DNA of 63,550 nt from Gammaproteobacteria bacterium (GTDB taxonomy: Bacteria; Pseudomonadota; Gammaproteobacteria; Pseudomonadales; Pseudomonadaceae): the NCBI GenBank assembly GCA_018826895.1, contig JAHJYA010000021.1, positions 1 to 63,550 on the forward strand, given 5' to 3'. This document shows, one piece after another, positions 31,594 to 35,950 of this stretch (positions within the stretch are counted from its first letter, which is position 1; each line of letters opens with the position of its first letter). The translations under genes and the position numbers were made by a program. The notes under the pieces were generated by a model. The model did no database searches and was not told the origin of the DNA. It saw only the letters and a list, made by a program, of their open reading frames with translations.

Positions 31594-31641
31594 TCGTGCA
31601 ACTTGCAATGTCCGTAATGGTGCATCGTGCAGACTGCAACT
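31594..31641 (+). promoter_or_regulatory. Paired upstream activator sites (AlgB-like UAS), copy 1
   Basis: Two copies of a TCGTGCA half-site begin at 31594 (TCGTGCAACTTGCA) and 31625 (TCGTGCAGACTGCA), 31 bp or about three helical turns apart. Both are followed by a partial inverted half TTGCA/CTGCA. They lie about 80 bp upstream of the sigma54 promoter at 31704, the usual range for enhancer sites. Assignment to AlgB is an inference from the adjacent algB gene and from the matching sites upstream of the second copy. Confidence 0.6.
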
Positions 31642-31703
31642 CCGCGCGCCTCTTGAGTTGCTGTAAGTATATGATTTTATTGAATATTTAGGCATGTTCC
31701 GGG

Positions 31704-31720
31704 TTGGCACGAGCGCTGCT
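31704..31720 (+). promoter_or_regulatory. Sigma54 promoter of the first WVF-protein operon
   Basis: TTGGCACGAGCGCTGCT matches the -24/-12 consensus YTGGCACGrNNNTTGCW at all but one fixed position (C for T before GC). GG at 31706 and GC at 31718 are 12 bp apart as required. Transcription would start near 31731, 30 bp before the gene. Confidence 0.78.
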
Positions 31721-31760
31721 AATCACCTCTGTATTGATTGATGCAGATGGAGATGCCCCC

Positions 31761-32015
31761 ATGACCCGCCCACTTCCGCTGTTTTGCGCCGCTGCCATCG
31801 CCCTGGGTGCCGTGTTTGGCCTGCCGTCGCTGCCGGCTTCTCCGGTGCTCGATACCGATTCGCAGTCACTGGCCGAGCGCCGCGCGATTTACCAGGTCAT
31901 GCAGGCTCAGGCCGCGCGCCCTGCTGCTCAGCACCTGGCCATCGAAGTTCAGGGCAACTCGGCGCCTGCGCCGGTGGCCGGCCATCCGCCAGTGACCGAA
32001 CGCTGGGTGTTCTAA
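31761..32015 (+). CDS. Small exported protein ending in Trp-Val-Phe (MucE-like AlgW-activating signal)
   Basis: An 84-aa protein starting at the ATG at 31761, with an N-terminal hydrophobic export signal (LFCAAAIALGAVFGLPSLPAS) and a disordered Ala/Pro-rich body ending ...VTERWVF. In P. aeruginosa the small envelope protein MucE ends in the same WVF, which binds the PDZ domain of AlgW and starts proteolysis of the anti-sigma factor MucA. The protein is otherwise unlike known families as far as I can see. It is expressed from a predicted sigma54 promoter and is followed by a small membrane protein. Its counterpart is at 35702, on the other side of kinB-algB. Confidence 0.75.
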   Translation: MTRPLPLFCAAAIALGAVFGLPSLPASPVLDTDSQSLAERRAIYQVMQAQAARPAAQHLAIEVQGNSAPAPVAGHPPVTERWVF

Positions 32016-32042
32016 GCGCGCTCCCGAGGAAGGAAGAAGACC

Positions 32043-32237
32043 ATGTCCAAAGCCGCATTCACGTTACTCGTTCTACTGAGCCTGGCCGGCGCTGCGCTGC
32101 TGTTCGTACCGCTGCCTGAGTCCCTGGTGACTATGGCCAAGGTGTTGTTCGCGGTGCTATTGGCTGGCTTCGTGGTCGCCCTGGCACTGGGCCGACGTTT
32201 CAAGTTTGATCCGATTTTGCGTTCCAGTATTCGCTAG
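32043..32237 (+). CDS. Small two-helix membrane protein, DUF1328-like
   Basis: A 64-aa protein with two membrane helices (FTLLVLLSLAGAALLFV and VLFAVLLAGFVVALALG) and a basic tail (GRRFKFDPILRSSIR). The second helix and the GRR motif resemble the DUF1328 protein at 36202 (AKILFVVFLVMFVVSFIMGRR). A purine-rich GAGGAAGGAAG precedes the ATG. It is 27 bp after the WVF-protein gene, so it is its operon partner, and its end overlaps the kinB 3' end convergently by four bases. Confidence 0.7.
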   Translation: MSKAAFTLLVLLSLAGAALLFVPLPESLVTMAKVLFAVLLAGFVVALALGRRFKFDPILRSSIR

Positions 32238-34018
32238 AGCGGCAGCGCCATATAGAACTGCGAGCCTTCTCCCGGCCGCGAATACAGGCTGATTCGCCCC
32301 CCGTGCAACTGCACGATCTCCTTGCACAGCGCCAGGCCAAGGCCGGCGCCACCCTTCTTGCGACCGATCTGCACGAACGGCTCGAAGATCCGTCCCTGCT
32401 GGCTGAAGTCGATGCCCTCGCCACTGTCCTGCACGCTGAGAATCAGGCGCTTGCCATGCCGGCGTGCCTGCAGCGTGATGGTGCCGCCGGCCTGGCTGTG
32501 GCGCAGGGCGTTGGCCATCAGGTTGTCGAGTACCCGCTCGATCTGTGCGCGGTCGAGCTGGATGAAGGGCATCTGGCCCATGACCTCTGCAGTCAGGGCG
32601 AGCCCGCCGGCTGCGGCCGCCTCGGCATGACGTAGGCGGGTCTGCTCGACCAGATCCGCAATGTCCACGGGCGCCAGTTCCAGGGTCTGCAGGCCATTCT
32701 GGTAGCGCGAGAAGTTGAGCAGGTCGCTGATCAACTGCACCAGGCGCGCCATCTCCTCGTTGACGGTCTCGGCCAGGTCCAGCTCGCGCGATCCCTCGGC
32801 CAGGTGCAGGCGTTCCTGCAGCAGGCTGAAGGCCATCTGCATACCGGTGACCGGGGTGCGCAGCTCATGGGAGGCGCGCAGGACGAATTCGCTGCGCACG
32901 CGCTCGAAGGTGCGTTGTTCGGTCACGTCACGCAGCACCATGACCGCGCCAACACTACGGCCGTCGTTATGGCTGATCGGGGTAAGCGCCCAGGCCAGCT
33001 GGCGCGTTTCACCGGCAGTTTCGATCTGCAGGTCCTGGGGCGCCTGTTCCAGCAGCTCGCCACGCAGCACCCGCGTCGTGGCGTCGTCGAGATAGGGGCG
33101 GCTAAGCAGCTCGCCGAGGGTGCGACCGCGGGGCTCGGCCAGCCAGAACAATTGACGGATAGCCACCGGGTTGGCGTGTTCGACCCGCCCCTGAGGGTCG
33201 ATGATCACCAGGCCATAGTCGATGCTGTCCAGCACCGCCTGGAGGCGCGTCTGGCTGGCCAGCAGTTCGTCGACATTGTTCGCGGTGTGGTGGCGCAAGG
33301 CTTCGGCCATCAGGCCAAAGCGGCGGCTGAGCAGCGCCATTTCCGCCCAGGGAGACACCGGCAGCACCACATCGAAGTTACCCTGGCCGATATTGTCGGC
33401 GGCTTTGGCCAGCGCCTCGATCGGCGCGCCGAAGCGCCGGGCGATGCTATGGGCAGTGAGTACACCGATGGCCAGGACCGCGACTGCCAGTACGCCGAGC
33501 AGGCCGGCGATCAGCTTGGCCCGCTCGCGCCCGGCAGCTTCTTCTTGGCGGATCCCCGCGATGGCCTGGTTCTGCAGGTCAATCACGCGCATACGGACGG
33601 CGTTGAACGTCTGGCTGAAGTCATTGCCGTCGAGCAGCATCCAGCGGATGCCGGCGGGCTTGCTGAGGGTTTGCAAAAACGTTTCGTAGGCTTGCCGAAC
33701 GGGTTCGAAATACACGCGGGTTGAAGCATGGCCGCTGCCCAGGCCACGATTGAGCAGTTGCTCGAACTCGGCTTGGGACGTGGCCAGGTTGTCGAGGTCG
33801 GGTGTTTCGCTGATCAAGTTGACCAACTGATCGCCCAGGTTGCGACGCATCTCCTGGCTCAGTTCGAAGGTGATCAGGCTCTGGCGAACGGCGTTTTCCT
33901 GATTGAGGTTCATCTGCATGACGCTGACCACGCCAAGCACCAGGCCGAGCAGGGCCACGGTGATCAGCGCGGAAAAGCTCAGAAACAGCCGCGTACGCAG
34001 CGCCATGGCAAGCTTCAT
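32234..34018 (-). CDS. kinB: Sensor histidine kinase KinB
   Basis: Inner-membrane partner of AlgB, 594 aa (595 in P. aeruginosa). Membrane helices at about 10-35 and 168-190 enclose the periplasmic four-helix sensor. Then HAMP (about 190-242), PAS (about 255-370), HisKA with His384 (FVLRASHELRTPVTG) and the ATPase lobe with N-box NLMANALRHSQAGG and DSGEGIDFSQQ. The conserved proline after the H-box is present. In P. aeruginosa KinB acts largely as an AlgB phosphatase, and its loss turns on alginate production in a way that needs AlgB, RpoN and AlgW. It overlaps the algB stop by four bases. Confidence 0.94.
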   Translation of the reverse strand: MKLAMALRTRLFLSFSALITVALLGLVLGVVSVMQMNLNQENAVRQSLITFELSQEMRRNLGDQLVNLISETPDLDNLATSQAEFEQLLNRGLGSGHASTRVYFEPVRQAYETFLQTLSKPAGIRWMLLDGNDFSQTFNAVRMRVIDLQNQAIAGIRQEEAAGRERAKLIAGLLGVLAVAVLAIGVLTAHSIARRFGAPIEALAKAADNIGQGNFDVVLPVSPWAEMALLSRRFGLMAEALRHHTANNVDELLASQTRLQAVLDSIDYGLVIIDPQGRVEHANPVAIRQLFWLAEPRGRTLGELLSRPYLDDATTRVLRGELLEQAPQDLQIETAGETRQLAWALTPISHNDGRSVGAVMVLRDVTEQRTFERVRSEFVLRASHELRTPVTGMQMAFSLLQERLHLAEGSRELDLAETVNEEMARLVQLISDLLNFSRYQNGLQTLELAPVDIADLVEQTRLRHAEAAAAGGLALTAEVMGQMPFIQLDRAQIERVLDNLMANALRHSQAGGTITLQARRHGKRLILSVQDSGEGIDFSQQGRIFEPFVQIGRKKGGAGLGLALCKEIVQLHGGRISLYSRPGEGSQFYMALPL

Positions 34019-35361: not shown

Positions 35362-35404
35362 CTAAAAGGGCTCCGAAGTGATTGCAGAGTTTAGTCCAGA
35401 AAGG

Positions 35405-35423
35405 TTCGTGCAAGTTGCACGAA
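35405..35423. promoter_or_regulatory. Perfect palindrome in the algB leader
   Basis: TTCGTGCAAGTTGCACGAA is a 19-bp perfect inverted repeat 44 bp before the algB start and about 200 bp before the sigma54 promoter at 35612. It looks like the full-dyad version of the TCGTGCA half-sites in both UAS clusters. It may serve algB autoregulation, the divergent operon, or both. Confidence 0.65.
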
Positions 35424-35502
35424 AATTTTCCAAGCCGTTATGTCAGGCCAAGGCCTCTTTGTACTTCCTACTGTTGAGGTCGTTGAGCCGAGCCGCAGAC
35501 GG

Positions 35503-35550
35503 TCGTGCAAAACGCCCGAGGGCAAAATCGTTGATCGTGCAGGATGCCGT
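35503..35550 (+). promoter_or_regulatory. Paired upstream activator sites (AlgB-like UAS), copy 2
   Basis: TCGTGCAA at 35503 and TCGTGCAG at 35535 are 32 bp apart, the second starting 79 bp upstream of the -24 element. In copy 1 the first site also continues with A and the second with G, and the spacings are 31 and 81 bp. The second halves of the dyads are degenerate here. Confidence 0.58.
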
Positions 35551-35611
35551 TCCAAATAATTTATGTGTTTTTTAAGTTGCTGATTTTATTGATTATTTTT
35601 ATCGGTAAAGG

Positions 35612-35628
35612 TTGGCATGAGCGCTGCA
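35612..35628 (+). promoter_or_regulatory. Sigma54 promoter of the second WVF-protein operon
   Basis: TTGGCATGAGCGCTGCA has GG at 35614 and GC at 35626 with the required spacing, and shares the AGCGCTGC spacer and -12 with the first copy. Upstream lies an AT-rich tract (GATTTTATTGATTATTTTTA) that could bend or bind IHF. Transcription would start near 35640, about 62 bp before the gene. Confidence 0.75.
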
Positions 35629-35701
35629 ATATCCTGAGCATTAGCAAGGCACGACGTGTTGTGAACTTGCCCCCTACAGAGACCCGCAGGAGGACTTCAG
35701 G

Positions 35702-35950
35702 ATGAAAAGCCAGCATCTGTATGCACTGCTTCTCGGCAATGGATTGTTCACTGCTGCGGCCCTGACGGTACTCGTGGGGGGCGCAGTAGCAACGCCTGCA
35801 GTTAGCGCCACGCCTAGCTCGTCGTTGAGTGTGTCCGCGCCCGTTCAGCGGCAGTGGTCCCACGCGCCGATGGGGCATGTATTGCCCGTCGCGCGTACGG
35901 TTTCGAGCGAAGCCAGTCAGCGCCCTGCCTTACCGACTTGGGTCTTTTGA
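35702..35950 (+). CDS. Small exported protein ending in Trp-Val-Phe (MucE-like), second copy
   Basis: An 82-aa protein with a GCAGGAGGA ribosome-binding site, an export signal (YALLLGNGLFTAAALTVLVGGAVATPAVSA) and a Ser/Pro-rich, probably disordered body that ends ...LPTWVF. It shares little with the protein at 31761 beyond length, export signal and the C-terminal WVF, as expected if only the exposed tail matters. It heads a run of four small genes (to 36968) behind a sigma54 promoter. Confidence 0.75.
   Translation: MKSQHLYALLLGNGLFTAAALTVLVGGAVATPAVSATPSSSLSVSAPVQRQWSHAPMGHVLPVARTVSSEASQRPALPTWVF

Follow-up and report, generated by a model that had tools for sequence, protein, structure and literature searches.

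The closest described counterpart of the genes reported here is mucE (PA4033) of Pseudomonas aeruginosa, which encodes a small envelope protein with an N-terminal hydrophobic stretch and a C-terminal (R)WVF tail that activates the protease AlgW. Expression of mucE is driven by AlgU, and the gene is reported only from P. aeruginosa (PMC3819740; articles are cited by PubMed Central, PMC, number and throughout for the portion of their text that was accessible). AlgW has been crystallized and is described with bound WVF and with the MucE decapeptide SVRDELRWVF, in which R at -3 sits on E285 and E at -5 on K287 (PMC8545111). The published half-maximal activation by this decapeptide is at 2 uM. In the DegS-RseA system of Escherichia coli, which acts on sigma E, a PDZ domain likewise reads a C-terminal aromatic tripeptide and cleavage of the anti-sigma factor starts; the ligands are YxF-type tails of outer-membrane proteins (PMC8545111). 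P. aeruginosa also has the KinB-AlgB regulator pair, in which KinB is reported to be an AlgB phosphatase (PMC13001231) and AlgB binds the algD promoter, PalgD, directly (PMC6979010). In its strain PAO579, mucoidy associated with PilA108, a small RpoN-dependent protein whose tail is of the F-x-F type (FTF), needs AlgW and AlgU (PMC3684759). Here, we analyzed a 63.5-kb stretch of Pseudomonadaceae DNA (the window; positions 1 to 63,550 of contig JAHJYA010000021.1, from assembly GCA_018826895.1 of 4.40 Mb and 88.4% completeness), in which two small genes, wvf1 and wvf2, flank kinB and algB, follow sigma54-type promoters, and encode proteins that end in Trp-Val-Phe (WVF).

The two proteins resemble MucE in tail, size, and hydrophobic stretch, the features that our comparison covers, and AlgW is their predicted target. 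By locus and promoter type, however, they are not mucE orthologues: genes of this kind lie beside algB, with sigma54-type promoters, in 82 of 99 loci compared, and a P. aeruginosa-like genome (G126) has a mucE-type gene elsewhere. The proposed ligand is a dedicated, transcriptionally controlled small protein, in contrast to the ligands of DegS, and a conserved gene, in contrast to PilA108, which is a truncated pilin that arose by laboratory mutation. The regulator pair is the same as in P. aeruginosa, but no AlgB-driven AlgW peptide is named in the accessible literature on that species, and G126 lacks the gene beside algB. We suggest that the WVF proteins are AlgW activators of a known, MucE-like kind with new wiring.

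The best explanation, to which we assign a probability of about 70%, is that AlgB and RpoN make a MucE-like ligand of AlgW, leading to cleavage of MucA and release of AlgU. AlgB with RpoN would switch on wvf1 and wvf2 from sigma54-type promoters with paired operators, the promoter DNA presumably being bent by integration host factor (IHF). The WVF proteins, which are predicted to be exported, would then offer tails that the AlgW PDZ domain is predicted to recognize, and AlgW, activated in the manner known for MucE, would cut MucA so that AlgU is released. KinB would set the moment at which the switch closes.

An earlier note on this DNA, hereafter the original prediction, had placed two small WVF-ending open reading frames (ORFs) around kinB-algB, with an intact GAFTGA motif in AlgB and a sigma54 promoter before each ORF. 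Both ORFs are present, domains and translation agree on the identities of AlgB and KinB and on the motif, and sigma54-type sites, conserved in relatives, lie 41 bp upstream of wvf1 and 74 bp upstream of wvf2 (table 1). The encoded proteins end in VTERWVF and ALPTWVF, respectively, and each has an N-terminal hydrophobic stretch and is predicted to be exported. The pattern TGGGTNTTYTRR, which is W-V-F followed by TRR as DNA, has 13 matches genome-wide, 7 of them with a true stop. Five of these seven are short or overlapped by longer open frames, leaving wvf1 and wvf2 as the only plausible WVF genes of the assembly, although further ones could be missed because of its incompleteness.

Conservation was assessed in 99 loci. 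An AlgB search gave 79 loci among the matches listed, from which 58 pseudomonad-like loci were used and 21 distant ones dropped before counting; 40 of 42 AlgB loci of two further genera (G049 and G062 were left out) and L186, a sister of the window, complete the set. These locus sets possibly overlap in species, and species are not independent. A WVF ORF is near algB in 82 loci, and the other 17 comprise one cut by a contig end (L007), one in which the ORF ends in WIF (L040), two in which it ends in WTF (L220 and L221), and 13 without such an ORF. Conservation of the tail in relatives, which the original prediction had set beforehand as a test of itself, is borne out at this rate. Its picture of WVF genes flanking kinB-algB is accurate for the window and for L186 but not as a rule, as the gene is found only 5' of algB in 80 of the 82 loci and only 3' of kinB in L038. 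Together, the 82 loci and the window, with two genes each in the window and L186, provide 85 WVF genes. These were selected by their W-V-F ending, so the fair control is the rate of that ending over all ORFs of 45-150 aa. The 99 loci contain 8298 such ORFs, and those with a WVF ending number 83, exactly as many as the algB-associated genes there. On these counts, the WVF gene is real and conserved, far beyond chance.

Across the 85 genes, chosen for this ending, the three final positions have zero entropy, compared with 1.2-3.6 bits for the preceding eleven. Codons within the tail differ among genes, for valine (GTG in 63, GTC in 13, GTT in 8, and GTA in 1) and phenylalanine (TTC in 69 and TTT in 16), as do the stops (TGA in 51, TAG in 20, and TAA in 14). 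A 17-member alignment has four invariant columns only, M1, W82, V83, and F84. A profile search recovered 118 homologues, of which 115 end in WVF, 1 in WIF, 1 in WLF, and 1 otherwise; their source names are mostly hypothetical or uncharacterized protein, with two bearing unrelated names. NCBIfam models matched none of the 17 members, and with Pfam a single member had a single weak match (TraD, E 0.0042). The proteins have a median length of 94 aa, and export is predicted, with a hydrophobic window of at least 1.6 in 72 of the 85 and of 1.41-1.59 in 10; the remaining 3 have miscalled starts. The residue at -3 is R in 62 tails, G in 14, S in 6, T in 2 (including wvf2), and H in 1, and the RWVF tail, as in wvf1, is that of MucE.

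Within the window, only the two promoters, TGGCACGAGCGCTGC and TGGCATGAGCGCTGC, match TGGCAYGN4YTGC exactly; genome-wide, there are 24 exact matches. With one mismatch allowed, the motif is not enriched in the window (12 observed versus 13.0 expected from shuffles). The motif by itself was therefore rejected as promoter evidence, and the promoter claim rests on context and conservation. In both promoters, a GG/GC -24/-12 element is preceded by a pair of sites, the TCGTGCA operators, a feature absent from the original prediction. Half-sites of each pair are 31-32 bp apart, and a search of both strands of the window for a sigma54 site with two half-sites at fixed distances returned exactly the wvf1 and wvf2 places. 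Pairs of TCGTGCA at operator spacing are at 2 places in the window's own genome, versus 1 match for a reversed control pattern. At least one match to the pair pattern was found in 270 of 398 family genomes; among the matches listed, several recurring ones are unrelated to algB. One sequence, TCGTGCAGGCTTGGGAAGGGGAGATTNGGNATCTCGTGCA, recurs almost unchanged in many genomes, at places other than the WVF promoters (e.g., L121, L134, and L136).

Promoter and operators recur in relatives. A strict sigma54 site is upstream of 66 of the 85 WVF genes, and the other 19 have relaxed sites, mostly with G or A before TGC. In three of these 19 (L202, L204, and L206), the start is miscalled and the promoter probably is as well; they were retained in the counts. 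Both half-sites are at the fixed distance in 65 of 85 genes. At the level of loci, an operator pair with a sigma54-type site pointing away from algB was found in 75 of 99. The opposite strand gave 0 of 99, and three altered half-sites gave 0, 2, and 0 of 99. In 51 of 85 genes, the 80 bp preceding the -24 box contain an IHF-like site, versus 0.85 in mononucleotide shuffles.

Table 1. Coordinates of wvf1, wvf2, their control sites, and neighboring genes in the window
Feature	Position	Strand	Details	Basis
Distal operator of wvf1, TCGTGCAACTTGCAATG	31594..31610	+	TCGTGCA, core TGCAN3TGCA; 110 bp before -24 box	
Proximal operator of wvf1, TCGTGCAGACTGCAACT	31625..31641	+	TCGTGCA, core TGCAN3TGCA; 79 bp before -24 box	
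IHF-like site (wvf1)	31664..31676	minus-strand match	One mismatch to WATCARN4TTR	By eye
Sigma54-type -24/-12 promoter of wvf1, TGGCACGAGCGCTGC	31705..31719	+		
wvf1, predicted exported AlgW ligand	31761..32015	+	84 aa, tail TERWVF	Sequence, relatives
Hydrophobic ORF 3' of wvf1	32043..32237	+	64 aa, no Pfam family	
kinB, sensor kinase	32234..34018	-	KinB_sensor, HAMP, PAS, HisKA, HATPase_c domains	Domain search
algB, NtrC-type response regulator	34015..35361	-	Response_reg, Sigma54_activat, HTH_8 (Fis-type) domains; GAFTGA in translation	
Palindromic operator in algB leader, TCGTGCAAGTTGCACGA	35406..35422		Perfect 17-bp palindrome, 45 bp before algB start	
Distal operator of wvf2, TCGTGCAAAACGCCCGA	35503..35519	+	TCGTGCA; 109 bp before -24 box	
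Proximal operator of wvf2, TCGTGCAGGATGCCGTT	35535..35551	+	TCGTGCA; 77 bp before -24 box	
IHF-like site (wvf2)	35573..35585	minus-strand match	Matches WATCARN4TTR	By eye
Sigma54-type -24/-12 promoter of wvf2, TGGCATGAGCGCTGC	35613..35627	+		
wvf2, predicted exported AlgW ligand	35702..35950	+	82 aa, tail LPTWVF	Sequence, relatives
ORF 3' of wvf2	35963..36148	+	61 aa, no Pfam family	
DUF1328 membrane protein	36202..36366	+		Domain search
Ivy, lysozyme inhibitor family	36504..36968	+	Putative co-transcription with wvf2	Domain search

The genes behind the same promoter (DUF1328 and Ivy here, with BON-domain and DUF2383 genes in relatives) suggest an envelope-defence kit made together with the alarm peptide. 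A second operator pair precedes a DUF3182 gene in the relatives L119, L127, L129, and L135 (Pfam assignment on L127), and in three of these four loci a TGGCCTGAT..CTGC sigma54-like site follows 111-112 bp after the first half-site, in the geometry seen at WVF genes; the DUF3182 gene is a possible further target of AlgB. The stretch directly upstream of wvf1 (24862-31545) is occupied by large sensor kinase genes together with CheR/CheB-like and receiver genes, all named by eye from translations.

Indirect evidence suggests that AlgB is the protein that binds the paired operators. The TGCA-N3-TGCA core is present in 60 of 100 algB leaders and, of 31 algD-type loci inspected, in 14 of the 27 with a recognizable start and enough upstream sequence (25 sites), whereas seven control palindromes gave 0 in both sets and shuffled algD regions held a mean of 0.3 sites. 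A mean operator-matrix score on algD regions was noisy, with shuffles scoring similarly, and was superseded by this exact-core test. AlgB may control its own gene through the leader palindrome. An algD-type gene of the window's own genome has one operator core upstream; that genome has two AlgD-type dehydrogenase genes (L239, whose position is also that of L249, and L243), and the core is upstream of the L239 copy only. Work by Leech in 2008 reportedly located AlgB binding between -274 and -224 of algD. Upstream of the P. aeruginosa-like algD (L238), the core begins at -616 relative to the start codon, just downstream of an AmrZ site that begins at -661. The published AmrZ site is at -282 from the algD transcript start (PMC3325190), which places the core at approximately -259 to -227, the exact value varying with the part of the site to which -282 refers.

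It is conceivable but unlikely that a sigma54 activator other than AlgB acts on these operators and that the WVF protein is still the trigger of AlgW. Thirteen of the 27 algD upstream regions are without the core, including six of the window's genus (L263-L266, L268, and L277), and the assignment of AlgB to the operators is drawn from sequence. However, the operator pair adjoins algB, the core recurs in the majority of algB leaders, and upstream of the P. aeruginosa-like algD the core is near the AmrZ site and inside the fragment reportedly bound by AlgB in the Leech 2008 work, all of which point to AlgB.

Components downstream of the proposed ligand are also present. The window's genome encodes AlgW, AlgU, MucA (193 aa, with both RseA domains), and MucB, as well as MucC and MucD (identified by eye from translations, with an HtrA hit). 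Its AlgW, in which most MucE-contacting residues are conserved, aligns without gaps to P. aeruginosa AlgW structures and keeps W281, L282, E285, Y311, M342, R374, and the catalytic triad, with I at position 284 and Q at 287. Among 30 chosen genomes, all have AlgW, E285, and M342, and 29 have Q287; the lone exception is G126, with K287, the residue that faces the -5 Glu of MucE.

We consider it quite unlikely that AlgB and RpoN act on AlgW by way of algW transcription itself, with the WVF proteins being minor or unrelated envelope proteins. RpoN is reported to drive the transcription of algW in strains of P. aeruginosa (PMC3684759 and PMC13001231). But the 575 bp upstream of algW in the window's genome are without an operator core and without a convincing sigma54 site, and algW was rejected as a candidate AlgB/RpoN target in this genome. 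This route would also leave unexplained why the tail is retained while the rest of the protein drifts. That the tail instead acts on a different PDZ protease, for example MucD, or marks the protein for degradation is very unlikely: a MucD-type protease is also encoded and the protease-PDZ plan is common to HtrA proteases, but MucE, which has the same tail, was crystallized with AlgW, and the WIF, WLF, and WTF variants retain W and F, the positions said, in the accessible text, to decide binding.

The circuit from AlgB and RpoN through WVF proteins to AlgW, as originally predicted, withstood most sequence tests (tail, promoter, operators, and AlgW residues) but not its link to P. aeruginosa genetics or two-sided flanking as a rule. 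The genome that bears on this link is G126, which has a MucE-type protein and an algD upstream region with an exact match to the published 23-base AmrZ site (of two published primer tails, one had an exact match and one had none) and is on these grounds P. aeruginosa or a near sister. A P. aeruginosa species primer matched 0 of 25 genomes. Of the 10 WVF pattern matches in G126, 2 have true stops and one is a gene, encoding the 89-aa MucE-type protein, which ends in SVRDETRWVF and is located elsewhere than algB. In the algB locus of G126 (L191), the operator pair remains, together with a relaxed sigma54 site, and DUF1328 and Ivy follow straight after. The mucE strand of a 3-kb stretch in G126 contains neither a sigma54-type site nor an exact operator core and has two loose core matches.

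Several observations weigh against the proposed circuit, among them the missing algB-side gene of G126, a relative of the species used for the AlgB-RpoN-AlgW genetics. Mucoidy of P. aeruginosa kinB mutants reportedly needs AlgB, RpoN, and AlgW, as is also said in papers that cite this work. If G126 is typical, these genetics, to which the original prediction appealed, require another go-between; the WVF gene beside algB cannot explain them if P. aeruginosa, like G126, has only a mucE-type one. Within the sampled loci, 24 of 99 fail the strict pair-plus-promoter test. Among the 13 that have no WVF ORF, 12 pass it, the exception being L193, and the promoter leads to BON-domain, DUF2383, DUF1328, or Ivy genes (examples confirmed by Pfam); the promoter is thus wider than the WVF gene and has other duties. 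Beyond the algD regions that are without the core, 23 of 85 tails, wvf2 included, are without R at -3, and Q replaces K287 in the AlgW pocket. An AlgU-type promoter precedes algB in 1 of 100 cases, versus 3.4 in shuffles, and a closed loop through such a promoter was rejected, as none was found. In P. fluorescens F113, kinB and algU mutants both derepress a second flagellum (PMC5031763); more AlgU is expected in a kinB mutant, so the shared phenotype has the opposite sign, and kinB in F113 may act by another route. Azotobacter vinelandii makes alginate without a need for algB and is described, in the accessible part of PMC6979010, as having no kinB or mucE homologue, with algW being needed.

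Differences between G126 and other genomes raise a further, tentative suggestion, for which we would put the odds a little short of even. An alarm peptide controlled by AlgB and sigma54 could be the ancestral AlgW ligand in the Pseudomonas family, with the P. aeruginosa line having lost it, kept the promoter, and rewired to an AlgU-driven MucE with a matching pocket change to K287. The K287 change, seen in one lineage, is a single event and weak evidence.

We found no description of WVF proteins beside algB in open-licence PMC titles and abstract starts, and a mention is possible in Damron 2009/2012, Qiu 2007, and Cezairliyan 2009. A 2026 review tells the path from KinB-AlgB and RpoN to AlgW, in its accessible part, without a peptide signal (PMC13001231). 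As MucE is reported only from P. aeruginosa, AlgW elsewhere is without a known dedicated ligand. Both questions, the route taken by KinB-AlgB and RpoN and the ligand of AlgW, become testable through a gene that occurs in most sampled loci and has a defined promoter and a working end of three residues. At the algB locus, the model species P. aeruginosa may be the exception.

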